Source of the DNA: a virus
Length of the DNA stretch: 48,569 nucleotides
Virus record (IMG/VR): IMGVR_UViG_3300020187_000056
Coordinates: 1 to 48,569 of that record
Reading direction: 5' to 3' (one strand)
Positions 2,123 to 47,847 of this stretch are shown here, one piece after another. Position 1 is the stretch's first letter. Each line of letters opens with the position of its first letter. The notes under the pieces were generated by a model. The model was not told the origin of the DNA and did no database searches. It worked only from the letters and a program-made list of their open reading frames with translations. Made by a program: the position numbers and the translations under genes.

Positions 2123-3727
2123 ATGGAATTCAATTTACCAAGTCAGATCGTAAAGGATCTAAGCTTCGGAGAAGAAGCGCGCAATAAGATATTGTCAGGT
2201 GTTTATAAATTATCAAACGCAGTTAAGTCCACATTAGGGGCTTCAGGAAAGTGCGTGATATATGAGGACGCAATGGGCAGACCGGTGATAACAAAAGACG
2301 GGGTAACCGTTGCAGAAAGCGTAGTCTTAATGGACCCGGTCGAGAATATAGGTGCCACCTTAATAAAGGAAGCAGCTAACAATACAGTGAAAGAAGCAGG
2401 AGACGGTACTACTACAGCTACCGTTCTTGCTACTTCATTATTAACAGGACTAAACAATTACAAGGGTGAAGAAAAGATTAGAAGTATTAAAGACGGCATT
2501 TCTGAATGTTACAAAGAAGTTGTCGATTATCTTGACAATGCCAGTATACCGGTTGAAGGCGAAATGCTTAGGCAAGTTGCTTATATTAGCTGCAATAATG
2601 ACAGTAGTCTTGGAGACAAAATTGGAGAGGCTTTTGAAAAAGTTGGCAAGAATGGAGTCGTTCTAATGGAAGACTCTGAAACAAATGATACTTACGTTGA
2701 TTTTGTTGAGGGGACACAATTTGAAGCGGGTATAAAATCTCCGCATTTATTAACTGACAAAGACAAAGGTACTGCGGTGTTGGAAAACCCGTATGTATTA
2801 ATAGTTAGTTCGAACATACCAAGTGTACGACGTATACAAAGTATATTAGAGCATGTAGTTAAAACTAAAAGAGCATTGCTTATTGTTGCGCCTATGGATC
2901 AACAGCCGTATGCTACTTTACTAGCTAACAAAGTTAAGGGCAACATTAAAGTCAATATTGTTGACCTACCCGGTTTTGGCCCAACTAAGCAAGACACTAT
3001 AGAAGACCTGGCCATATTAACCGGCGCCACAGTCGTTAACGAGGAGTTAGGGGATGATTTAGATCTTATTAGCCCTGATGTATTAGGAGAAGCAATTAAG
3101 TCCGTTACAGACGCTAAAAACACTACGTTGCAAATTAAAGAAGCAACCGAAGATCTATCAGATAGAATAGCAGAAGTAGAAAACAAAATTGACAAAGAAA
3201 CAAACGGTTATATTAAAAAGAAATTAGAGCAGCGTTTATCAATGCTAACCGGTAAGGTTGGTGTTATATACGTAGGAGCCGATTCTGCCGTAGAGTTAAA
3301 AGAAAAGAAAGACAGAGTAGAAGACGCTATTCACGCAACTAAAGCTGCTTTGCAAGAAGGTATTATACCAGGTGGTGGAACTGCTTTATTAAATGCGTCT
3401 CAACTTATAGAACCTAAGAATGACGGGTACAAAATATTGCTAGAAGCAATACAATCACCTTACAACATTATATTAGATAACGCAGGTTACTCTGATTACA
3501 TATCACCAAAAGAAAAATCTATAGAAGCCGGTAGCGGTGAAGAGGATGATTGGGTTGGCGTAGGTGTTGACGTCACTTGTGGGTGTTATAAAAGAATGGT
3601 TCATAACGGTATTATAGATCCGGTACTGGTAACTAAGTCTGCATTAAAGAATGCGATAAGTGTTGCCACTACTATTATCTCAGCCGATTGTATAATCTCA
3701 AATGTAAGATCTCTTGAAAGCAATTAA
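2123..3727 (+). CDS. groEL: Phage-encoded chaperonin GroEL (Cpn60)
   Basis: A 534-aa full-length group I chaperonin. Equatorial ATP-site motifs are present: VITKDGVTVA with D59 (E. coli D52), AGDGTTTATVLA with D94 (D87), RVEDAIHATKAAL with D401 (the catalytic D398), and IIPGGGTALL at 414-423. The apical domain (about 193-380) keeps KSPHLL and LPGFGPTKQDTIEDLAILTG, corresponding to APGFGDRRKAMLQDIA. Oddities: the phosphate loop LGPKGR reads LGASGK at 38-43, and the GGM-type C-terminal tail is missing. It is followed by a GroES gene overlapping by 14 bases, so the pair is probably co-translated. Its position between fibre and packaging genes suggests folding of a virion protein. Family assignment is very secure; substrate unknown. 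Confidence 0.96.
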   Translation: MEFNLPSQIVKDLSFGEEARNKILSGVYKLSNAVKSTLGASGKCVIYEDAMGRPVITKDGVTVAESVVLMDPVENIGATLIKEAANNTVKEAGDGTTTATVLATSLLTGLNNYKGEEKIRSIKDGISECYKEVVDYLDNASIPVEGEMLRQVAYISCNNDSSLGDKIGEAFEKVGKNGVVLMEDSETNDTYVDFVEGTQFEAGIKSPHLLTDKDKGTAVLENPYVLIVSSNIPSVRRIQSILEHVVKTKRALLIVAPMDQQPYATLLANKVKGNIKVNIVDLPGFGPTKQDTIEDLAILTGATVVNEELGDDLDLISPDVLGEAIKSVTDAKNTTLQIKEATEDLSDRIAEVENKIDKETNGYIKKKLEQRLSMLTGKVGVIYVGADSAVELKEKKDRVEDAIHATKAALQEGIIPGGGTALLNASQLIEPKNDGYKILLEAIQSPYNIILDNAGYSDYISPKEKSIEAGSGEEDDWVGVGVDVTCGCYKRMVHNGIIDPVLVTKSALKNAISVATTIISADCIISNVRSLESN

Positions 3728-4418: not shown

Positions 4419-5405
4419 ATGGCATTTAAAATGACACCTAAATCCCCTGTCTTATTGGCAACGGGTAGATTCGGATCTCCGGCAAAACAGACTAAAGAGG
4501 GAGGGAGTATTTCCAATACACAAGGTAGTGATAGCGGCGAACTAACAAAAAAAGGAGCGACTAAGCCTCTAACTGCATTGCAACGAGCACAACAAGAAGC
4601 AGCCGCTGCTCAAGTAAGCAATCAGGTAGCAAATATACAAAGAAACACTTCGGGAACTAAAAAAGAAACCGCAAGGCTAAAGAAAAGAACAGCAAGAAAC
4701 AATAGTGCAACAGAAAGAAAAGAAAAAAACGCTAAGAAAACACAAGCTAGAGTTGACGAAAGAAAAAAATCTGGTAAAACTCGAGTAGGCAAAGTAGTAG
4801 CTGAAATAAAAAAAGCGGTATCCCCAGCTAAGCAAAAAAGAACGATGGATGAGGCTTACGCGAAAAGAGATATGGACATCTATGGCGACTTGGATAAAAA
4901 TGAGTATAAAAGAGAAGCAAAGCGTCAAAACAAAGTTATAGCAGGTAAGAAAAAACTTTATACTAAACTTGGGGATGGCACCATGCAAACAAAAAAGGAC
5001 AAGTTCGGTAACACTGATCTTAACACCCCTGGCTTAGAACCTAACATGCGTAATACTAAAGGCGAAAGCATGAATAGCGGTAATACTGGAGGAAGAAAAA
5101 TCACCGGTGATGTTCCTAAGACTAAAATGAAGTCTAAAACAAAAAAGGTTACTACCCTAAAAGCAGAAGGCCCTAAAAACGAAAAGGCTGCATTGCCTAC
5201 TGCAAAGCCAATCAAGACTAAAGAAATTAAAGTTACCAAAAAAGTAACAAAAGCTAAACCAACCCGTTCTCAAAAAATAAGAGCAAAAGGAGAAGCTGCA
5301 TTAGCTAGTGGAAACACAGGCAAAGCTCAAAGGTTGAGAAAAAGAATGGATAGAGTAGACGCTAGAAAAGCAAAAAGAGCAGCTAGAAAAGAAGCTAGAG
5401 CATAA
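4419..5405 (+). CDS. Lys/Arg-rich SPAK-motif protein
   Basis: A 328-aa extremely basic protein made of Lys/Arg/Ala/Thr-rich low-complexity sequence. It carries SPAK twice (GSPAKQ at 19-24 and VSPAKQ at 134-139). The C-terminus is a run of RLRKRMDRVDARKAKRAARK-type helix. The start MAFKM resembles the MAFKL start of the next gene, which begins one base before this stop codon ends (TAATG). Composition resembles histone H1 or a DNA-condensing protein. Packaging with DNA or a capsid interior location is an inference. No enzyme motif is seen. Confidence 0.7.
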   Translation: MAFKMTPKSPVLLATGRFGSPAKQTKEGGSISNTQGSDSGELTKKGATKPLTALQRAQQEAAAAQVSNQVANIQRNTSGTKKETARLKKRTARNNSATERKEKNAKKTQARVDERKKSGKTRVGKVVAEIKKAVSPAKQKRTMDEAYAKRDMDIYGDLDKNEYKREAKRQNKVIAGKKKLYTKLGDGTMQTKKDKFGNTDLNTPGLEPNMRNTKGESMNSGNTGGRKITGDVPKTKMKSKTKKVTTLKAEGPKNEKAALPTAKPIKTKEIKVTKKVTKAKPTRSQKIRAKGEAALASGNTGKAQRLRKRMDRVDARKAKRAARKEARA

Positions 5406-5758
5406 TGGCATTTAAGCTAAAATCACATTCTGAAATATTCGGTTTGCACGACGCTACATCAGAGTTTGGCACACCTGTTATTATAAAGGATGATTTAGAA
5501 GAAGGAGTACAAGCAGAAGCTAATAGAGATGGAACGATCTTTGTTAGCTCAGACTTGCCTGAAAGCAAAGTGCAAGACGCGGTAAACCACGAAAAAGTAC
5601 ATTTAGATCAAATGGCTTCTGGTAGATTGCAATACTCAGACGATTCTGTTACTTGGAAACGAGACACTAGATCTCCTGCTAGAAAATACGATAGGGCTAC
5701 AATGAATGAAGGACACCCTGATTTTGAGTGGGAAAACGAAGCATATAAACAATCATAA
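5405..5758 (+). CDS. Mini zincin-like metallopeptidase with SPAR motif
   Basis: A 117-aa protein with a zinc-binding HExxH motif in AVNHEKVHLDQM (H62, E63, H66). Near the C-terminus FEWENEAYKQ supplies E112, a possible third ligand in the way short phage zincins end in W-E-x-E-A-Y. SPAR lies at 90-93. There is no signal peptide or membrane segment. It starts by TAATG overlap with the basic SPAK protein, pointing to a linked function. It could be a maturation protease or an inactive structural zincin. Catalysis is inferred from the motif alone. Confidence 0.65.
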   Translation: MAFKLKSHSEIFGLHDATSEFGTPVIIKDDLEEGVQAEANRDGTIFVSSDLPESKVQDAVNHEKVHLDQMASGRLQYSDDSVTWKRDTRSPARKYDRATMNEGHPDFEWENEAYKQS

Positions 5759-7705: not shown

Positions 7706-7901
7706 TGTAGGCAAAGACTATAAGAATGATGCCATGCACTATACTGTTGGACAGGAAGTGTATGGTGGTCATACTATAGAGAACATTATAGAAGAGGAAA
7801 CAAAGTACTCAATCTATATATCAAAAGGGGATGTTATCATGCCATGGAAAGACTTCAATAAGAATATGTCTATATCTGTGGAATACAATATTGCATGGTA
7901 G
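7683..7901 (+). CDS. Conserved small phage protein, unknown
   Basis: A 72-aa protein with DYKNDAMHYTVGQEV, then a central strand ENIIEE-x4-SIYIS, then VIMPWKDFNKNMSISVEYNI. It reads as a small beta-barrel or SH3-like fold. The DAMHY-VGQ and WK-FN-(6)-VEYNI pattern recurs by memory in uncultured marine phages. It overlaps the previous gene by 23 bases and stops one base before the next start. Function unknown. Confidence 0.65.
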   Translation: MQLIRKISVGKDYKNDAMHYTVGQEVYGGHTIENIIEEETKYSIYISKGDVIMPWKDFNKNMSISVEYNIAW

Positions 7902-7902
7902 A

Positions 7903-8508
7903 ATGCAGAGTGTATTTAATTACCTAGTATCGCCAAAAGGTGCTAGAACGACAGGACAAACAACTATCGACGGACAAGAGCTATTGCTTAATACTGAATT
8001 ACAAAACCATGAGTACTCGAATAGAGTTGGTGTTGTTTTAAGCTTACCATTAGCGGAGAAATATAAAGAAATAAAAGAAGGTGATGAGGTTATAGTGCAT
8101 CACAATGTATTCAGAAGATTTAGAGACGTAAGAGGTAAAGAAAAAAATAGTAAAAGCTATTTAACTGAAGAGACCTACTTAGCACAACCTGATCAAATAT
8201 ACGCTTACAGAAGAAACGGCGAGTGGAAAGCATTAGAAGGTTTTTGCTTTGTAATGCCGGTTAAAGAAACCAAAATGTTTTCAATGGATTTTGAAAAGCC
8301 TTTAATAGGCGTGGTTAAGTATTGCACTTGTGGCTTAGAAGTAGATAATATAGTGGGTTTTAGGCCTACATCAGAATACGAATTTATTATAGACGGGCAG
8401 AGGTTATACCGAGTACCCAACAATTCAATTACAATCAATTATGGACATAAAGGAAACGAAGAGGAATATAATCCGAGCTGGGCACAGAGCAGTAGAGGAA
8501 CTCATTAA
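7903..8508 (+). CDS. Putative double GroES-fold protein
   Basis: I choose ATG 7903, one base after the previous stop; the longer frame from 7831 would lie inside that gene. The 201-aa product has two parts that each read like a GroES barrel. The first has RVGVVLSLP, then EIKEGDEVIVHH, then DQIYAYRRNGEWKALEGFCFVMPV. The second has LIGVVKY, then VDNIVGFRP, then FIIDGQRLYRVPNNSITI. The strand, G-D-x-V and late strand order resembles Cpn10. With groEL and groES upstream this could be a specialised cap or lid. This is fold inference without a search; an unrelated beta protein is possible. It overlaps the next gene by 68 bases. Confidence 0.55.
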   Translation: MQSVFNYLVSPKGARTTGQTTIDGQELLLNTELQNHEYSNRVGVVLSLPLAEKYKEIKEGDEVIVHHNVFRRFRDVRGKEKNSKSYLTEETYLAQPDQIYAYRRNGEWKALEGFCFVMPVKETKMFSMDFEKPLIGVVKYCTCGLEVDNIVGFRPTSEYEFIIDGQRLYRVPNNSITINYGHKGNEEEYNPSWAQSSRGTH

Positions 8509-25897: not shown

Positions 25898-27241
25898 ATG
25901 GCAAACAATCAATTAATAGCAGGGGCTGCTAAAGTAGCTAGCAAGTTTATAGATGTAGGAGCAGAAATAACTAAAGGGTTTAACTCTACGACTTATCAAA
26001 GAGCTCCCTCTAGAACGGAACAGACAAACAAAGCTTACCAAAATAGAGTTAATTCCTTAATGGGTAAGATGAAAACAAACATCGACTTCACTTCTTTTTC
26101 TCCGCAAGAAACTGCAGCTATGAGAACCTTTTTAGCAAACGAAAGAACAAAGTATGCTGATGCAGCTACTATGGTAGCAAACATGGATGACACCACTTCT
26201 CCGGAATACATGGAGCAAGTGGATATTATGAACGGCGTAAACAATAGTTTTACTAATTTAGCTGCACAATTAAAATCTTACAAAGAAAGCAAGGTAGATT
26301 TTACAGAAAATATGATGACGGGTGCTATATCAGATGGCAACCCAGTAAATAACACCAGAGAAAATTTAGCTATATACGGTTTCTTAGACTCTGACGGTGA
26401 TGGCATTAATGACGAAAGATTAAATGTTCCTTTTTCTATACAACAAGGGGGTAACCTAGGTTTTGAAATAGACGGATCAGTTAGACTATGGAATGATCAC
26501 AAAGGCCCTATATTTAAAGATTATAAATTCGGGGGAGAGCTGCTTAAAGGAAATGAAGCAGTTTTTAATGCAGGCAGAAAAGTAGGTGAAGATGCACAGG
26601 ATTTATATAGATTAGAATTACAGCAAGCTTTAGGCAATCAAGACACACTAAGATCGTTTATATACGACTTCAATGACAACTTTAAAACAGAAGACTTAGC
26701 TAAACTATGGGAAGAGAATCCAGACTCACCAGAAGTGCTACAGCAAGTCCGACAGCAAGCAATAGACAGGTTAGTACAGTCAAGAGTAGCCGTAGGCAAC
26801 GAAGGTTACGCAAACAGGCAGGCTTATCGAAATAGGGACAAATTTAAAGGGTATTCAAAAGTAAAAGATACCGTAGATCTTGGTCCAGACAATCCTAATG
26901 CTGATAAAGGCGCAGGAGAATATCAAAAATGGATCAATATAGATAAAACAAAACCCGAAATATATATATACATAGGGCCGACTCCTGGAGGATCTTCGAA
27001 TAACTTACCCGAACAAAAGGGTGATGGTACAGAAATAAATGATTCTGGATTATCTGATGACATAAAAGATTCAAGAGTTAATGACCCCACCAAAGACGAA
27101 GATGAAAAAGCGGCGATAATGAAGGCGGCTCAAGGTTCAGTAAAAAGAAAAAACTACCCTGAAACCGAAGAGGGCGATGAAGCTTACAAAAAAGAGGTAA
27201 TGAGGATATACAAAGAAAGTTTAAATAAAGCAAAGAAATAA
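25898..27241 (+). CDS. Probable internal virion protein
   Basis: A 447-aa protein. The N-terminal half is helical (GAAKVASKFIDVGAEITKGF, then long helices). Near residue 160 is DSDGDGINDE, a calcium-binding type DxDxDG loop. The C-terminal quarter is acidic/basic low complexity and ends KESLNKAKK. It shares its last base with the start of the 2918-aa gene (TAATG). It corresponds by position to T7 gp15-type ejection proteins, although no homology is visible to me. Confidence 0.6.
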   Translation: MANNQLIAGAAKVASKFIDVGAEITKGFNSTTYQRAPSRTEQTNKAYQNRVNSLMGKMKTNIDFTSFSPQETAAMRTFLANERTKYADAATMVANMDDTTSPEYMEQVDIMNGVNNSFTNLAAQLKSYKESKVDFTENMMTGAISDGNPVNNTRENLAIYGFLDSDGDGINDERLNVPFSIQQGGNLGFEIDGSVRLWNDHKGPIFKDYKFGGELLKGNEAVFNAGRKVGEDAQDLYRLELQQALGNQDTLRSFIYDFNDNFKTEDLAKLWEENPDSPEVLQQVRQQAIDRLVQSRVAVGNEGYANRQAYRNRDKFKGYSKVKDTVDLGPDNPNADKGAGEYQKWINIDKTKPEIYIYIGPTPGGSSNNLPEQKGDGTEINDSGLSDDIKDSRVNDPTKDEDEKAAIMKAAQGSVKRKNYPETEEGDEAYKKEVMRIYKESLNKAKK

Positions 27242-30200
27242 TGCCTAAATATAAATTAAATAACGGAGAAGTAGTTGATACATCTAACTTTTCAGAAGAG
27301 GAAGAAAACAATTGGCTTTTTGATAATACGGATAACATAGATTTAAACTATGATTTTCAAAACGGGGCTGTGGGGACCGATGCGTCTGCAACTCCAGTAA
27401 ACAATCCGGCATCAAATGGGGATTCAATCTCGGAAGATGGTTTATCGGGTGGAGTAGATCGTAGTGAATATTTACTTACACTAGATGATATAAGGGGATC
27501 ATCGGAAAGCGATATTGCAATAGCCCTTGGTGAAAAGCTTGCGGATGTGGGCTTAGCGGTTGAAGAGTCTGCAACTTATCAAGATTTAACAGCTATTAGA
27601 ATAAAAAAAGCCATACGCGGCGATACTTTAAAAGATAGGCTTGCGGAAGGTTACGAAGAAAGTGGTTTTTGGGGCGATTTGCTAGCCGGAGGACTTACAC
27701 TTACTCAATTTACCGGGGATGACCCAGGCACTTTTGCAGTAGGAGAAGATTTAACTGATGAGGAGCTGCAAGCTAACTTAGACAAATTTAATAAGTTTAT
27801 TCTTGAAAATGCAGACTATGATTTTGTAGACAAAGCTAGGGAAAGAAGCAATGACACCTATGTTAACGAGTACGCACCAGCTGTTAAGGCTACAGATTTA
27901 TCTAAAGAGGAACAAAAATCTCAGTACATAGAAGAACTTGTAGACAAGTTTGAAGAAATAAAAGTTTTAGAAGACGAATGGTCTCCAGATACAGGCAGAA
28001 TTGGTAAAGCTGCTACAATAGATGATTTTGAAAGCGAAAAAGAATTTGAAGATTACAAACGCTGGGAAAAAGAAGAGCCTATATCTGAAATAGACAATAA
28101 AACTCTTGAAGCCTGGGATTACGAAAGAAGAGAAAAGGAGGTGCTTAAGAACTCAGGACAGTTTATGAGTAATCTTGAACCAGAACAAAGAGCAGATATA
28201 CTTGCTTTAGCTATTGACGACAGAAAAGCCGTGGCTCGGTTTAGCACTAATATAAAAAAATTTGAACAAGACCAGGTAAAATTTGAAGAAGCGTATAGCA
28301 ATTATAAAAGCGATCCATCAAATAGCAACTTTCTTGCAGCACAGGACTTAAATTTAAAATTACTAGAAGATCAATCTAGGCTACAAAAAGCTCAAACTAA
28401 AGCAACAGCTAGTGGCCTGTTAAAAAGAGCTGATGCAGTACCATTAGCTATAGCGGACGCTCAAAAAAATTACAACAGGCTTAGGCAGTTTAACCTAGGT
28501 TTTAGAACAACGGGTCAAACAGTAGGCTTTAGTGCTTTAACCTTAGGGACTTACTTATCTCAAGGATTTGGAGGCCCAGGTAAAATGTCTTTAAACGAAG
28601 TAAACACCTTGCTTGACGAGGGAATAGGTGCTACCTCTCTATCTGAAGACTTAGCTAAAGAAACAGCTAGAAACCAGTACGCTATTGAAGTTGACGACAT
28701 ACGCAACTTAACTGATGTAGGCGCATGGACAATGAACTCTTCTATAAATTTAGCTCCCTCATTAGCTATGGCTAGTACAGGGGCATTTGCTTTGCCTTTA
28801 TTTTTCCTTACAGGTTCAGGAGGAGTGCTCGAGAAAAGGGCTATGGACCAAAAGCAAGCTGCTAGCAGAATACTTTTAAATAATGAATGGCTAGCGTCTA
28901 ATCCGAATGCTGATCCCTTAGAAATAGCGACAAGGCAAGCTCAACTGGATGAGGACACAAGGGTTATTGGCATAGAAGATTGGAGAGTATTAAGTACAGC
29001 CGGTTTGTCTGGGGCAGCAGAAGTAGTATTTGAAAAAATAGGTACTATTGCGATGTTAAAAAGCCTAAAGAACGGAATTGGGCAAGTGCCTATTGAAAAC
29101 ATGAGACAAGGTTTTTCTTTCGCAGCAAAAGGTATTACTAAAGGTATGCTACAAGAAGGTGGTTCTGAATTTGCTACAACGTTAGTTCAAAACTGGGGGG
29201 ATATATTTATATTAGATGGGGATAAAAACCTATTTGGCGACGTAGAAAACTGGAAAAAAGTGACTAAAGGTTCTTTAGAATCGTTTGCACAAGGAGCATT
29301 AATGGGAGGCGGTATGTCTTCTATAAACGGGGCCAAAGCAGTACAGGCTGGGGTATTAGCTGAAATAGCTACAAAAGAACAAAATGCAGCAATGCAAGAG
29401 TTAGTAGACAAGCTATCTGCTATCGTTGGTGTAGAGTTACTTAATATTAATAATTTATCTGATTTAAACTTAAACTTTTCCCCGGATGTGCAGGCTCAAA
29501 TAGATAAGCTTTTACAAGAAGGCGTAGACATTGAAGCAGACATAATAGAAAGTTTAAAGAGTGGCTTTTCCGCTGCCGACTTAATTGAAATAGGTGAAAT
29601 AAACAGAAAAAAAAGAGCTATAAGTAAAAAGCTATTATATGCTTCTAGTCAAGGATTAAATGCTTCTCAGCTAGCCGCATACAAAAATCAATTACAAAAA
29701 GATTTTGAAGCATTAGACAAACAAAGAGAAACAATGCTTTCCGGATCCGCTGGAAAACTAAACAGAATTTCTAACAAGTTTAACTTTGAAGCTACTGGGG
29801 GATATGCGATGTACTCAGCAGCAATGCTTAATGAAAGTGTATTTAATATAAACCAAAATTACTTAAATCAAAACAAAAAACAAAAACAAATTGCATTTGA
29901 CAAGGCAAGAGCTAAGCTAAAAGCAGAAGGCAAGCCTTTTACTGAAGCTGACGTTAAAAAGAAAGCTAAAGACGATTACATATACGATGCTTACTATAAG
30001 AAAATAGAGCAAGGAGAAAAAACCGCAGCGGCACTCGCAGAATCACTAGGGTTAGACGTTAAAATAATATCAACAAACTCTACTGAAGAAACTCTACAAA
30101 AAGCCCTAGAGGCCAACCCTAATATGTCTGCCGAAAATATAGCTGCAATTAAGGCGGGTCAAGTAGAGGGAATGCGTATACCGGGAGAAAACGGAGGGCC

Positions 30201-33200
30201 CGATACAATAATAGTAGACAGAAATCAAGCGGCTATTAATAAAAGACCAGGGGTATTCGCTCATGAGGTGTTGCATTCTTATGTAGCTAAAAAGTTTGGA
30301 TCTGCTAATTTTGTACAAACAGAAAAAGGAGTGCAGGCTTCTATAAATAAAGCAGGTGAGGATTTACTAAGCTTTCTTGAAAAAAATGATAAAGACTTAT
30401 TCGCTAAAGTAAAGTTTAGAATTGACTCAAGTTATACAAATAAAAACGAAAACGGAGAATTAATTAAAAACGAAGACTATTACGAAGAGGTGCTTAACGC
30501 TATGTCTGATGTGTTAGCCGACGGTCAAAAGCTTAATACCGGTACTTTAAGTAAAATAAAATCTTTTGCCAACTCTCTTCTAGAAGGTATTGGACAAGGT
30601 CCATTTTTCAAAGAAGATCAAGGAAAAGACGCGTTTATATTTGTAAGAGATTATAACAAGTCTGCCCATTACGGTAAAAAATACAACAAGAAAAAAGCGG
30701 GTGTAGCTGATGACAATAAGCGAGCTAGACGAAGCACAGGGGGTAATACTGGGTTTTCTAAATCAAAAAAGCTTACTGAAGCCGAAGAGGATAGAATGGA
30801 AGCTATTGACGAGGAGATTGGTGAAATAAGCGATGATTTAATGCAGGGCTTTATAGATCAGGATACTCACGATAAAAAAATAGCAAAGCTCGAGGAGGAA
30901 TACGAGAACATCGAAAATCCACCTAAAGTAGAGGTTAAAGCAAAGCCTAAGGCAAAACCTAAAGCTAAAAAAGAATCCGATATTGATGCGCCTCAAGCAT
31001 CTAAAAAAGACGAGCAAAGCTTAAGCGATGTTACCGCAAAATCTAAAAAGAAGCTTGACGCTATAGGTAATAACCCAGATGGATTTAACCCAAATGATGG
31101 CGCTATATATGAAGTACTAGCAGGAATGATTCGCTCTAAAGTAAAAGCGTTTAAAACAGCGGGTAATAATATAGTTAATCTTACAAATCTTCCAGGATTT
31201 GAAATGGATAATATGGTTAGTGAAACATTGACTAGTCTTATACCTTATATAAAGAAATTCGATCCAGCTAAAAATGACTCTTTATTTGGATATGTAATGG
31301 CTCAGCTAGGTAATAGAATGAGAGGTGCGTTAAAGACTGGTAGAGTGACTGAAAACGCTTTTACGGAAGACGTAACCACAGCTAAAGGTATTGCCGCAGA
31401 AGAAAGTTCAAACGAAGTAAAAGAAAGACCTAAGTTTAAAAAATTCACAGAAGCCAATGTAGTGCCTTCAGAGGTTATTGATGCAATACGCACTAAGCTA
31501 AAGTCTACATTACGTACATTAAAAACTCGTATGGATGTAGCTATATCCAATAATAGAACTGTAACTCCGCTTATAGCTGAAATACAATATGAAATGGGTA
31601 AGCAAGCCGACATAGACCTTAAAAAAGCTATGGGCGGTAAAAAAGATTTAAAGCTTAGAAAATTTTTATTAAAAAGCAAAAAAGCGATATTAGAAAATCT
31701 TACTACCACATTTCTGATGGGTAAAGATGGCAAGGGTGGTTTTCCTCAGGCTATACAGAAGAAAATAGATGGCAAATTTGTATCATATCCAGGTTGGGTT
31801 GGTAAAAAAATAGATAGAGAAACTACAAGTACAGATAATGCTGGTAGAACTTCTGGGGCAGAAATTGTTAGAAGAGTGCCAAATGTAAATAGGGTTGTTA
31901 CGGATCAAGAGTTTTTGTCTCAAATACTAGATGAAACAGGTAACCCAATAAGAGGTAGAAAAGAAGCGCTAGCAAAAGCAATGGCTGAAGAAATTTCATT
32001 TGAAATATTCTCTGCTGATTTAGCGAATCCTGCCAGTGAAATAAGTGAGGCCTTTGAAAACAATCAAGAAAGACAAGGTGCTGTATTGGCTGAGAATTTT
32101 GTTCAAGAACTAGAAAGAGACATGGACCGGGGTAATATTAAACTTAGTATTACGAAGGAGAGACAAAAGGAGCTAAACGAGATGTGGGCTAAAACATGGC
32201 AAACAACCTCTGAAAGTAACAGGCTAAAGGCTGTGGAAAAGCTAAAAAAGAAGCTAAGGAAAAAAGAAGAAAAAGACTATATTGAGACGGTAGACAATAT
32301 GCTTACCGAAGAAATAAATGAAATATTAGAATTAAACTGGCAACAAAAAGAACAAAGACTAGTTGATATTACCAACAAGCTTCAAAGCGTGGTTCCTGGT
32401 TTAACAATAAAACAAAAAACAACCCAAAAGAACCCTAATAAAGCAGATTTAGTTTTTAGTTTGTATGGAAAACAATACGCATGGGAAGCAAAAGGCTCAA
32501 GAAACGCTATTTTAGCCACATTTTATATGGGGGCATGGTGGAAAGGCGACTTTAAGATAAAAAGAAAAAACGTCACAAAAACTACAAAAGACTTAATAGA
32601 AGCAGCTGATCAAGGTAATGCTGAAATGCAGAATTTAGTAGATATTCTAGAGGATATGTACGATACTGGCTCCTACATTAACGAGCAGGGTATGCGAAAG
32701 AGATTATACGGCAAAGATCTTATAACAAAAAACAAAGACGGCAATTTTAAAATGCCTGTTTGGTTTTACGATCGTTACGTAAAGGGAGTATATAGCATGG
32801 GTAAAGTAAATGGCGGCGCAATTAGAAAGTTTAAAATAAAAGGAGGACTGGCCGCTGTTGTAAAAGTATACAATGGCAAAGGGCCAATACCCGTACGCTA
32901 TATTACACTAGCTGATGTAGGGGATTTAAGCATGGGAGCATTAGATCCATTGAATCTAAACCTGCCTAAATTAAAAGGAGATGTAGATGTCACTGTTAGA
33001 TTCCAGCCTACTTTTTCGGGAGAAAAAGGCAGTAGAAAAGTTACTTTAGCGAGAGTTGCTAGTTTCAAAATGACTGCGGAAACCGCTAACACGCTATCTA
33101 AAAAGGCTAAGACTAATTTATTTAGAGAAAATTCTGCAAAAGAAACTTTTACCAAAGCAGGAAACCCGCAATTGTCTATAACGAAGCAAGCCGCTATAAA

Positions 33201-35997
33201 TAACGCTGCAAGCATTAAATACTCTCAAACACCTAAAGGTATTAGCGTATTCGACTTTGACGACACGCTGGCTCGCACAAAAAGTAATGTGCTATACGTT
33301 ACTGCTGATGGTAAAAAAGGTAAGCTTAACGCAGCTCAATTTGCCGCTAGATCGGAAACAATGTTAGCGCAGGGAGTAGAGTTTGATTTCAGCGAGTTTA
33401 GTAAAGTAATGAAAGGCGAGTTAGGCCCGTTGTTTAGCGAAGCACAAAAGAAAGAAGGTAAGTATACTAACAAAGATATATTTGTTTTAACAGCAAGACC
33501 AGCAAATTCGGCTAAAGCGATACATGAATTTCTGAAGTCAGAAGGGCTAAACATACCTATAGGAAATATAACAGGATTAGGTAATGGTGCCCCGCAGGCC
33601 AAGGCTGACTGGATGGTTAGTAAGATAGCAGAGGGCTACAATGATTTTTACTTTGCGGATGATCACATAGGCAACGTTAAAGCTGTGGGTAAAGCTCTAA
33701 AGAGCGAAGGTGTTACAGGTCAAACAGAATTGTCCATAGTAGATTTTAAAAATCAACCTAAGGCTGTAAGAGATATACTTAACACGTTTGATGTTAAAGG
33801 ACCAACACAGAGATCTAGGGTTAAGTTTAGTAGAACATCGAATAAGACTATTAACGACATGCTCGAAAGAGCTTCAGGTATTCCTTCTAGAAAAAGATTA
33901 ACACGAATAGAGGGAGCTGAGCTAGGTAAAAAGAAAGGCAGGTTCAAAATATGGATGCCTTCTAGCCTTGAAGATTTTAGAGGTCTTACGGAATATACAT
34001 TCGCAGGCAAAGGAAGACAGGGCGACATTGATCAAAAGTTCTTCCGAGATGCTTTGGTTACACCGTATTGGAGGGGTATAAATGAAATGGATCAAGTTAA
34101 GCAATCACTTAAGAACGGATTCGCAGCACTTAATAAGCAATTCAAGCCTGTGCTTAAAAAGCTAGGTAAGAAAATACCAGGCATGGAATACACACACGAT
34201 CAAGCAATACGTGTTTACCTTTGGAATAAAGCAGGATACGAAATACCTGGACTTACTAAAAAGCTAGAAAGAACATTAGTTGCCGCGGTGCAAGCTGATG
34301 CTGATCTACTAGCTTATGCTAATGGAGCATTAAGACTGTCTCAAAGAAAACAGTGGTCTAAGCCTTCTGATTATTGGAATGTACAAACCATATTATCTGA
34401 CATTAATAATTTCACAGAAAAAGCAGGTAGAAAAGAATACCTTAAGGAGTTTATTGACAATGCCGATTTAATTTTTAGCGAGAAAAACCTAAACAAAATA
34501 GAAGCTATATACGGAAAAGCTCATAGAGAAGCCATTGAGGATATATTGTATCGAATGAAAAACGGTACAAACAGAGCGGCGGGCATGAAAAAGAACGAGC
34601 AAACATGGAACAATTGGTTAAACAATTCTATTGGTGCTATTATGTTCTTTAACAGAAGATCCGCACTATTGCAATTGCTATCTACGGTAAACTTTGTAAA
34701 CTGGAGTGATAACAATCCAATGAAAGCAGCAGCGGCATTTGCAAATCAAAAACAATACTGGGCTGATTTCGCTATGATATTTAACTCAGCTTCATTAAAG
34801 CAAAGAAGATCAGGATTAAAGACGGATGTTAATGCAGCGGAACTTGCTAGTGCGGTTACAGGCGCAACGGATAAAGCATCTGCAGCATTGAATTATTTAC
34901 TTAAAATAGGATTTACCCCTACGCAAATAGTGGATAGTTTTGCTATCTCAGCAGGGGGTGCTACTCTTTATAGAAACAGATTGAATACTTATTTAAAAGA
35001 AAAAGACGCAAAAGGAAATCCTAAGTATACACAAAAGGAAGCCGAGAAGCAAGCGTTTTATGACTTTAGTGTTATTTCTCGTGAGACACAACAATCGGGT
35101 GATCCAGCTTTAATATCCTCGGATCAATCTAGTTCGCTTGGTAGGGTTGTTTTAAATTTTATGAATACACCTATACAATTGAACAGATCAATTAAAAAGG
35201 CTGCTCAAAATATATACTATAGGAGAAAAGAACCAGGTATGACTCAAATGCAAAGTGACTTTTCTAATTTTAGTAAAATAATATATTACGGAACCATTCA
35301 AAACGCTATTTTCTCAACACTACAAGCTGCAATGTTCGCGCTTATACCTGGATTCAATGACGACGATGAGGAGCTAGATGACCTAACTAAGCAGGAAAAA
35401 ATAGACAAGAAAACATTTGCGGTTATAAATTCAATGATAGACACTACTCTTAAAGGAGGCTTTGGTTTACCTGGAGCTGTAGTATCTATTTTAAAGAACG
35501 CTATAATAGAATACAAGAAGCAGGAAGACAGAGGATTCTTAGCAGATGATTCTAAAACACTTATAGCTTTACTTAATATATCGCCAGCAGTGGGATCAAA
35601 AGGAAGAAAGATAGTTAACTTTATTAAAACAGAAAGGTTTGATAAAGAAGTTATAAATGAAAGAGGCTGGGATGTAACCATAGACGGTAAATTTAATTTA
35701 AGTCCTAGGTGGTCTTCAGCAGGTAACCTTATTGAAGGAACACTTAATATACCGATGGCTAGGGTAGTTGATGAACTTAATTCCATAACGGAAGCATTAG
35801 ATTCTAGAAATACAGCGTATCAAAGAATAGCTTTAGCATTAGGCTGGAAGACTTGGAATGTAGGTGCTAAAAACGAAGAAAACGATTTAATAGAGGTTGT
35901 TGCTAAGTACAGAAATAAGCTAAATAAAAAAGCAGAAACCAAAGCAAAAAAAGCAGCTGAAAAATTAAAGAAAAGAAGAGCTAACATACAATACTAA
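27241..35997 (+). CDS. Giant multidomain virion protein (zincin, sigma2-like, PD-(D/E)XK-like, HAD)
   Basis: A 2918-aa protein, the largest here, probably ejected with DNA. Modules, in order: helical N-terminus with a hydrophobic segment near 501-524; zincin motif FAHEVLHSY with H1008 and H1012; Lys/Glu linker 1175-1265; sigma-region-2-like segment around 1325-1365 (YIKKFDP, then LFGYVMAQLGNRMRGAL); PD-(D/E)XK-like D1736 with E1749/K1751 (YAWEAKG); HAD phosphohydrolase with FDFDDTLA (D2005, D2007), LTARP and FADDHIGN; a long helical C-terminal region with a hydrophobic stretch near 2688-2705. A short (K)LS or KYS/KFS motif recurs near module borders. Polyvalent phage proteins injected at infection are a known class, and this fits. 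Individual activities are motif-based. Confidence 0.8.
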   Translation: MPKYKLNNGEVVDTSNFSEEEENNWLFDNTDNIDLNYDFQNGAVGTDASATPVNNPASNGDSISEDGLSGGVDRSEYLLTLDDIRGSSESDIAIALGEKLADVGLAVEESATYQDLTAIRIKKAIRGDTLKDRLAEGYEESGFWGDLLAGGLTLTQFTGDDPGTFAVGEDLTDEELQANLDKFNKFILENADYDFVDKARERSNDTYVNEYAPAVKATDLSKEEQKSQYIEELVDKFEEIKVLEDEWSPDTGRIGKAATIDDFESEKEFEDYKRWEKEEPISEIDNKTLEAWDYERREKEVLKNSGQFMSNLEPEQRADILALAIDDRKAVARFSTNIKKFEQDQVKFEEAYSNYKSDPSNSNFLAAQDLNLKLLEDQSRLQKAQTKATASGLLKRADAVPLAIADAQKNYNRLRQFNLGFRTTGQTVGFSALTLGTYLSQGFGGPGKMSLNEVNTLLDEGIGATSLSEDLAKETARNQYAIEVDDIRNLTDVGAWTMNSSINLAPSLAMASTGAFALPLFFLTGSGGVLEKRAMDQKQAASRILLNNEWLASNPNADPLEIATRQAQLDEDTRVIGIEDWRVLSTAGLSGAAEVVFEKIGTIAMLKSLKNGIGQVPIENMRQGFSFAAKGITKGMLQEGGSEFATTLVQNWGDIFILDGDKNLFGDVENWKKVTKGSLESFAQGALMGGGMSSINGAKAVQAGVLAEIATKEQNAAMQELVDKLSAIVGVELLNINNLSDLNLNFSPDVQAQIDKLLQEGVDIEADIIESLKSGFSAADLIEIGEINRKKRAISKKLLYASSQGLNASQLAAYKNQLQKDFEALDKQRETMLSGSAGKLNRISNKFNFEATGGYAMYSAAMLNESVFNINQNYLNQNKKQKQIAFDKARAKLKAEGKPFTEADVKKKAKDDYIYDAYYKKIEQGEKTAAALAESLGLDVKIISTNSTEETLQKALEANPNMSAENIAAIKAGQVEGMRIPGENGGPDTIIVDRNQAAINKRPGVFAHEVLHSYVAKKFGSANFVQTEKGVQASINKAGEDLLSFLEKNDKDLFAKVKFRIDSSYTNKNENGELIKNEDYYEEVLNAMSDVLADGQKLNTGTLSKIKSFANSLLEGIGQGPFFKEDQGKDAFIFVRDYNKSAHYGKKYNKKKAGVADDNKRARRSTGGNTGFSKSKKLTEAEEDRMEAIDEEIGEISDDLMQGFIDQDTHDKKIAKLEEEYENIENPPKVEVKAKPKAKPKAKKESDIDAPQASKKDEQSLSDVTAKSKKKLDAIGNNPDGFNPNDGAIYEVLAGMIRSKVKAFKTAGNNIVNLTNLPGFEMDNMVSETLTSLIPYIKKFDPAKNDSLFGYVMAQLGNRMRGALKTGRVTENAFTEDVTTAKGIAAEESSNEVKERPKFKKFTEANVVPSEVIDAIRTKLKSTLRTLKTRMDVAISNNRTVTPLIAEIQYEMGKQADIDLKKAMGGKKDLKLRKFLLKSKKAILENLTTTFLMGKDGKGGFPQAIQKKIDGKFVSYPGWVGKKIDRETTSTDNAGRTSGAEIVRRVPNVNRVVTDQEFLSQILDETGNPIRGRKEALAKAMAEEISFEIFSADLANPASEISEAFENNQERQGAVLAENFVQELERDMDRGNIKLSITKERQKELNEMWAKTWQTTSESNRLKAVEKLKKKLRKKEEKDYIETVDNMLTEEINEILELNWQQKEQRLVDITNKLQSVVPGLTIKQKTTQKNPNKADLVFSLYGKQYAWEAKGSRNAILATFYMGAWWKGDFKIKRKNVTKTTKDLIEAADQGNAEMQNLVDILEDMYDTGSYINEQGMRKRLYGKDLITKNKDGNFKMPVWFYDRYVKGVYSMGKVNGGAIRKFKIKGGLAAVVKVYNGKGPIPVRYITLADVGDLSMGALDPLNLNLPKLKGDVDVTVRFQPTFSGEKGSRKVTLARVASFKMTAETANTLSKKAKTNLFRENSAKETFTKAGNPQLSITKQAAINNAASIKYSQTPKGISVFDFDDTLARTKSNVLYVTADGKKGKLNAAQFAARSETMLAQGVEFDFSEFSKVMKGELGPLFSEAQKKEGKYTNKDIFVLTARPANSAKAIHEFLKSEGLNIPIGNITGLGNGAPQAKADWMVSKIAEGYNDFYFADDHIGNVKAVGKALKSEGVTGQTELSIVDFKNQPKAVRDILNTFDVKGPTQRSRVKFSRTSNKTINDMLERASGIPSRKRLTRIEGAELGKKKGRFKIWMPSSLEDFRGLTEYTFAGKGRQGDIDQKFFRDALVTPYWRGINEMDQVKQSLKNGFAALNKQFKPVLKKLGKKIPGMEYTHDQAIRVYLWNKAGYEIPGLTKKLERTLVAAVQADADLLAYANGALRLSQRKQWSKPSDYWNVQTILSDINNFTEKAGRKEYLKEFIDNADLIFSEKNLNKIEAIYGKAHREAIEDILYRMKNGTNRAAGMKKNEQTWNNWLNNSIGAIMFFNRRSALLQLLSTVNFVNWSDNNPMKAAAAFANQKQYWADFAMIFNSASLKQRRSGLKTDVNAAELASAVTGATDKASAALNYLLKIGFTPTQIVDSFAISAGGATLYRNRLNTYLKEKDAKGNPKYTQKEAEKQAFYDFSVISRETQQSGDPALISSDQSSSLGRVVLNFMNTPIQLNRSIKKAAQNIYYRRKEPGMTQMQSDFSNFSKIIYYGTIQNAIFSTLQAAMFALIPGFNDDDEELDDLTKQEKIDKKTFAVINSMIDTTLKGGFGLPGAVVSILKNAIIEYKKQEDRGFLADDSKTLIALLNISPAVGSKGRKIVNFIKTERFDKEVINERGWDVTIDGKFNLSPRWSSAGNLIEGTLNIPMARVVDELNSITEALDSRNTAYQRIALALGWKTWNVGAKNEENDLIEVVAKYRNKLNKKAETKAKKAAEKLKKRRANIQY

Positions 35998-47097: not shown

Positions 47098-47847
47098 TTA
47101 AAGGTAATCAATCACTTGCGCTGCGTCGACGTTAGCGATTAGATGGTCGATTGCTTCCTTCTTTATTTGAGATACAATGACATTAGCCGTTGGAACTGTG
47201 AGACTTATGTGCTTTGCAATCTCTTTGGCAGAATGTTTTTTACAGTCTAAACCGTAGAATAATCTTACTACCTCATATTGCTTTTCTGTTAGATGTTCTT
47301 TCATTATGCCTAATAAATATATATTGAGTAGATCAATATTGTATGGCTCTGAGTTATCAGGTAATTGATACGCAAAGTTATTTTCGTCGGCAGGTGTTAT
47401 GTCGTAACTAGAAAACATACTGTTGAAAAACAGGGCAACCATTTTTTGATCTTTAGGGTTGTTGCGTATAGCATTGAGCTTGTGCTCTGGAATCTTTATA
47501 TCTCCCCTGTTTATATCTATGGCTCTGCGTATGGCTCCCTTGATTCTTTTGCTGAAGAATGACTTTAACGTTTTCTCCATGTCATTAGATTCGTTTAAAG
47601 CAATCCAATCTATTCTGTCTACTGCTTTAATTAATCCTGAATTACCCTCTTGTATCAAATCATTTATACTAAGTACTCCTGATGCTTGCTGTGTTGTTGC
47701 GAACTTACGTGCTAAGTTTTCTACTAACGGCAGAAACTTTGTTATTAGCTCATCTCTAGTATACTCATCAAAGAATTTACCGTCAGGCATAGATCTTTTA
47801 ATATCTTCTTTGTATCTTACATAGTTATCTATATTATACTTTTTCAT
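47098..47847 (-). CDS. Phage sigma-70 family factor
   Basis: A 249-aa protein with sigma region 2 (about 37-110: LVENLARKFA, SINDLIQEGNSGLIKAVDRID, FFSKRIKGAIRRAI) and region 4 (about 190-240: LTEKQYEVVRLFYGL, then a helix-turn-helix SAKEIAKHISLTVPTANVIVSQIKKEA). Region 1.1 and region 3 are missing or short. It would steer host RNA polymerase to phage promoters, such as the repeated motif at 2064 and 25217. No phage RNA polymerase is visible. It overlaps the upstream 37-aa ORF by 14 bases. Confidence 0.88.
   Translation of the reverse strand: MKKYNIDNYVRYKEDIKRSMPDGKFFDEYTRDELITKFLPLVENLARKFATTQQASGVLSINDLIQEGNSGLIKAVDRIDWIALNESNDMEKTLKSFFSKRIKGAIRRAIDINRGDIKIPEHKLNAIRNNPKDQKMVALFFNSMFSSYDITPADENNFAYQLPDNSEPYNIDLLNIYLLGIMKEHLTEKQYEVVRLFYGLDCKKHSAKEIAKHISLTVPTANVIVSQIKKEAIDHLIANVDAAQVIDYL

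Follow-up and report, generated by a model that had tools for sequence, protein, structure and literature searches.

An uncultured marine phage, kin of flavobacterial viruses, encodes a 2918-aa protein that combines the motifs of a zincin metallopeptidase, a PD-(D/E)XK nuclease and a HAD phosphatase, all of them conserved, in a single chain, from which several disparate activities are predicted. We consider it probable that this is a polyvalent protein that is carried in the virion, is ejected with the DNA and has its enzyme cargo freed by the zincin; ejection, self-cleavage, the activities and their targets are what we infer here. The window, i.e. the whole stretch of DNA analyzed, comprises positions 1 to 48,569 of the IMG/VR virus record IMGVR_UViG_3300020187_000056 (48,569 bp). 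In it, the gene for the giant protein (27241-35997, plus strand) forms an uninterrupted open reading frame of 2918 codons, and relatives of 2983-2993 aa are encoded at the same place. The original prediction of a 2918-aa frame bearing these motifs was thus borne out, as the frame is open and the motifs are present at the predicted residues save for the start of the HAD motif. Pfam and PHROG scans of the whole chain returned nothing above cut-off, and none of its modules reached a curated Pfam cut-off. No match was obtained when the protein and two distant members were compared with phage records by tblastn, when genome contigs were scanned, or, below E 0.001, when modeled slices were compared with the PDB by Foldseek; with single models of 1200-aa slices, Foldseek was swamped by helical regions. 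Relatives were drawn from IMG/VR, yielding a non-redundant set of 81 proteins between 1068 and 3370 aa long, a part of them shortened by contig ends. For the HAD domain alone, relatives are encoded in 262 candidate stretches. Chance levels of motifs were taken from 1000 shuffles of the 2918-aa protein.

Matches to the PHROG families of podovirus-like phages of flavobacteria were obtained for the terminase, the portal and a group of virion genes, and the kin of the terminase are found in Flavobacterium elemoA phages, in Cellulophaga and Tenacibaculum phages and in the uncultured phage MW202828. In all relatives inspected, the giant gene is the final gene of the structural block, with products of 1691 aa in phi40:1, 1871 aa in phi19:3, 2482 aa in Gundel_1, 3694 aa in elemoA and 3859 aa in MW202828. 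The gene directly upstream (25898-27241, plus strand, 447 aa) is, by synteny only, the positional counterpart of phi40:1 gp100, which is annotated from MS/MS. The giant protein itself begins with a fast evolving region (residues 1-440, 27241-28560) that has 40% and 21% identity to relatives. It is followed by a hydrophobic, mostly helical module (residues 445-860, 28573-29820) with its hydrophobic stretch at residues 502-530, for which a function in the virion or in ejection is likely. A profile of this module detected the giant proteins of elemoA (67 bits), Gundel_1 (50) and phi40:1 (gp101, 47), with reversed and shuffled decoys scoring at most 6.4. The Cellulophaga phage protein gp101 is annotated as a structural/virion protein from MS/MS, and its genome position matches that of the giant gene in the window. 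On the basis of this homology and synteny, the window protein likely resides in the virion, as had been predicted, with the support coming from relatives. Phi40:1 gp101 has neither an HExxH nor a HAD motif; hence its virion status covers the shared module only. We propose that residues 1-860 pack and eject the protein, which would most likely leave the head either ahead of the DNA or together with it.

The same observations could be explained by a mainly structural ejection (pilot) protein like T7 gp16, in which the enzyme domains would be mostly accessories or relics of minor importance for takeover. The place of the gene at the end of the structural block, the sharing of the hydrophobic module with a protein devoid of both motifs and the constancy of the large helical C-terminal domain, the highest in the chain, all agree with this explanation. 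Nevertheless, we regard it as unlikely, because modules that have drifted to only 10-30% identity elsewhere still share all of their catalytic residues, which indicates selection for activity. Across more than 80 IMG/VR relatives, the catalytic residues of the zincin, PD-(D/E)XK and HAD domains persist where nearly all else diverges; their loss in close relatives, named in the original prediction as evidence that would speak against it, was not the pattern seen for any of the three.

The zincin motif HEVLH occupies residues 1008-1012 (30262-30276), exactly where it had been predicted, and HExxH arises at only 0.001 per shuffle. A single HExxH, usually about 1000 residues ahead of the HAD motif, is present in 71 of 76 long relatives. 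In 36 diverse members, chosen for HExxH and not for E1083, the sole invariant columns are H1008, E1009, H1012 and E1083. The latter (30487-30489) is a previously unnoticed third ligand, and every one of the 74 members with HExxH has it. The AlphaFold model displays the order strand-helix-strand-strand-HExxH helix-helices including the helix with the glutamate, with pLDDT values of about 76-94, and weak Pfam matches in this region include the metallopeptidase families M78, SprT-like, M90 and Zincin_1. The zincin profile detected the giant structural protein of elemoA with 38 bits and that of MW202828 with 17 bits, and an hhalign comparison of the window and elemoA zincins yielded an E-value of 3.7e-7. 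Given HExxH plus a downstream glutamate ligand and the strand-helix order of the zincin core, the assignment of a zincin-like metallopeptidase domain to residues ~930-1145 (30028-30675) holds up, with zinc binding and proteolysis as predicted properties. Five long relatives are without canonical HExxH. Among them, L098 has HExxxH, a variant described for polyvalent metallopeptidases (PMC5512222), and the giant proteins of L033 and L036 carry QExGH in place of the zincin motif, such that the zincin of this clade is possibly inactive or altered.

In the model put forward by Iyer et al. (2017, PMC5512222), a polyvalent protein accompanies the DNA into the cell, and its parts are set free or activated by the metallopeptidase. 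The order of virion module, zincin, cargo, HAD and C-terminus in the window protein fits this model. Between the ejection part and the helical C-terminus, we envisage the zincin peptidase, a sigma-2-like helical segment, a Holliday-resolvase-like PD-(D/E)XK nuclease and a HAD phosphatase, and the zincin would cut the chain, or less likely host proteins, and thereby release the enzymatic cargo inside the host. Alternatively, the zincin could be an effector or envelope enzyme that cuts host proteins or aids envelope penetration, the chain acting uncut and without self-processing. Precedents for such behavior exist, since the phage N4 virion RNA polymerase is packaged unprocessed despite its metallopeptidase domain and effector roles have also been considered for such peptidases (PMC5512222), and the QExGH members suggest that a catalytically impaired zincin is tolerated. 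However, the zincin is located after the virion-type module and ahead of the cargo, and almost every member with a different cargo has retained the metal ligands of the zincin, which fits a general releasing role. We therefore think this alternative somewhat improbable and prefer release of the cargo by the zincin.

Downstream of the zincin, a conserved charged linker (residues 1177-1240, 30769-30960) is 84% and 77% identical in relatives with a differing zincin region. It precedes the putative sigma-region-2-like helical segment (residues 1262-1420, FDPAKNDSLFGYVMAQLGNRMRGALK, 31024-31500). The segment named in the original prediction exists, but its homology to sigma factors was not established and is suggestive only. 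With the family profile, the two best of three PDB matches were sigma factors at region 2, both sub-threshold (E 0.26 and 0.29); weak Foldseek matches include domain 2 of sigmaA, and one of 16 members matched Sigma70_r2 at E 0.034. These similarities would be in line with a genuine sigma domain by which the host RNA polymerase is steered upon phage entry. Such a domain is nevertheless very unlikely, as a Pfam scan of 30 sequences of the module gave no Sigma70 match at E<=1, no region 4 was seen, and the segment exhibited neither profile similarity to nor an alignment with the phage's own sigma factor. The latter is a stand-alone sigma-70-like protein encoded at 47098-47847 on the minus strand, with Sigma70_r2 above cut-off.

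A strongly conserved uncharacterized domain (residues ~1400-1636, 31438-32148) ends with RGNIKLS and leads to a region that differs among relatives. This slot comprises 310-460 aa between an RGN[IV]K[FYL]S motif and the HAD domain and falls into several sequence groups; only a part of the members have the nuclease there, and the rest have modules unrelated to it. The window protein and that of L002 are only 14% identical in the zincin region and 15% in the nuclease region, whereas the HAD domain and the C-terminus are 89-90% identical; across relatives, the constant core consists of the HAD domain and the C-terminal domain of about 690 aa only. The chain is thus built as a scaffold of modules whose payloads are exchanged between sister phages, a property that the original prediction had missed and that is more informative than the set of motifs; such exchange would suit a set of enzymes brought into the bacterium along with the DNA. 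The domain shuffling observed among relatives corresponds to the mosaicism of polyvalent proteins. In the window, the slot (residues 1638-1992, 32152-33216) contains D1736 (32446-32448), E1749 and K1751 (32485-32493) at the residues predicted earlier, together with the previously unnoticed E1704 (32350-32352). With about two occurrences per shuffle, the spaced D...ExK motif was rejected as evidence for a nuclease when taken alone. The nuclease reading is supported by the conservation of four residues and not by the motif itself: in 14 sequences with 11-30% identity to the window, E1704, D1736, E1749 and K1751 are the only invariant columns, and four more members join the group by profile. When the group profile was compared with the PDB at E<=10, only three chains were found, namely two Holliday junction resolvases and the Hjc-like ST1444 (E 0.02-0.06), with their catalytic residues aligned to those of the nuclease module. 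RecU matched weakly in L101, and this part of the predicted structure is of low confidence (about 30-65). With a conserved E...D-x(12-15)-ExK pattern in a resolvase-like arrangement, the predicted PD-(D/E)XK nuclease-like module was corroborated, and its assignment as Holliday-junction-resolvase-like holds up at the level of sequence comparison. We suggest that the effector in the slot is specific to each phage and would in the window be a nuclease. In L041, L086, L092, L008, L090, L091 and L051, other modules occupy the slot instead and have a common EHxPP/EHxxP-type motif.

The HAD phosphatase-like domain extends over residues 1996-2200 (33226-33840). Its motif I, FDFDDT, was confirmed together with its conservation, but spans residues 2004-2009 (33250-33267) and not 2005-2009 as predicted; the HAD motif occurs at 0.010 per shuffle. 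Among about 80 relatives, at least 97.5% have kept D2005/D2007, T2084 (33490-33492), K2121 (33601-33603) and D2140/D2141 (33658-33663). PF12710 matched 25 of 59 members, and the polynucleotide kinase family phrog_415 matched 47 of 59, with a best E-value of 5e-8. The model of the region is Rossmann-like, and Foldseek lists the HAD phosphatases 3qgm (prob 0.84) and 1zjj. With motifs I-IV (DxD, T, K, DD) and a Rossmann-like core, the assignment holds up, phosphatase activity being predicted. We propose that the always-kept HAD domain has a core job, which may be the dephosphorylation of nucleotides or of the ends of nucleic acids. Its identity as a 3'-phosphatase of the T4 PNKP type was rejected, since in a pairwise profile alignment only motif I aligned with T4 PseT (33% probability); no kinase domain was identified. 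The remaining all-helical C-terminal domain (residues 2201-2886, 33841-35898) is highly conserved, has no Pfam or PHROG family and would probably also serve packing or ejection. Its profile matched Gundel_1 at 36 bits, part of the domain corresponding to the C-terminus of Gundel_1 gp074 (hhalign E 3.7e-8). LPD38 gave no match as a candidate for this domain, in a search whose controls were equally silent.

The polyvalent proteins of the phage type, as described by Iyer et al. (2017, PMC5512222), resemble the window protein in their very large chains with several disparate enzyme-like domains, in mosaic architectures whose least variable enzymatic module is a zincin-like metallopeptidase, and in their predicted delivery with DNA. 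They differ in that a term search of the main text of this publication did not find HAD and PD-(D/E)XK. Scans of the whole protein, the zincin and the C-terminal module gave no match to Pfam polyvalent (LPD/-PolyVal) domains, which are frequent in polyvalent proteins and not strictly defining. The giant proteins phi40:1 gp101 and those of elemoA, Gundel_1 and MW202828 share with the window the position at the end of the structural genes and, in part, the hydrophobic module (gp101, elemoA, Gundel), the zincin (elemoA, more weakly MW202828) and a portion of the C-terminus (Gundel), but none of them has a HAD domain or matches the sigma-like module. The nuclease has the order and identity of the E...D...ExK residues in common with the archaeal Holliday junction resolvase Hjc (PDB 2eo0, 1gef, 7bgs), from which it differs in being embedded in a giant chain.

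Polyvalent proteins as a kind are already known; the present family is undescribed within a limited literature search, which retrieved no description of a fixed HAD and C-terminal core with an exchangeable nuclease slot. A role in takeover or defense evasion is plausible by analogy with the published idea for polyvalent proteins. A more far-reaching reading, which we offer tentatively and hold to be possible, though less likely than not, is that this widespread family is a plug-in delivery platform. Its ejection part would be fixed, as would a HAD phosphatase for end processing with its C-terminal domain; the zincin would cleave the chain itself, the effector in the slot (a PD-(D/E)XK nuclease or another module) would be exchanged between close phages, and more domains would be inserted in or beside the HAD domain. 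Each phage would in this way inject its own takeover or anti-defense set. Polyvalent proteins are mostly a computational idea with few experimental models, and this family is large, has a cartridge design and is related to cultured phages of Cellulophaga, Flavobacterium and Tenacibaculum. The exchanged slots would directly supply early-infection effectors of marine phages, and the zincin would offer a test of the self-processing hypothesis.

Several further features were observed. The window encodes a GroEL (2123-3727, Pfam Cpn60, E 9e-56) and, just before the terminase, a 225-aa protein (7831-8508) without Pfam match at the place of the GroES-like cpn10 of relatives. A small 117-aa protein (5405-5758) outside any Pfam family has an HExxH of its own (HEKVH). 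Six relatives of the giant protein carry insertions in or just after the HAD domain. In L007 (8909-9472) and at the same place in L032, about 188 aa interrupt the HAD domain a short way past motif I and resemble an ADP-ribosyltransferase by eye (YYHGTSA...GLGKHYT), a reading that was rejected because it depends on motifs seen by eye and Pfam gave no confirmation. In L069 (10520-11011), L092, L081 and L046, an insertion of about 160 aa lies downstream of motif IV, where the HAD domain ends. Its GNAT-like look (ITGTGNAAEVFG) was likewise set aside as unconfirmed, and this insertion is distantly matched in jumbo phages of Vibrio and Pseudomonas.
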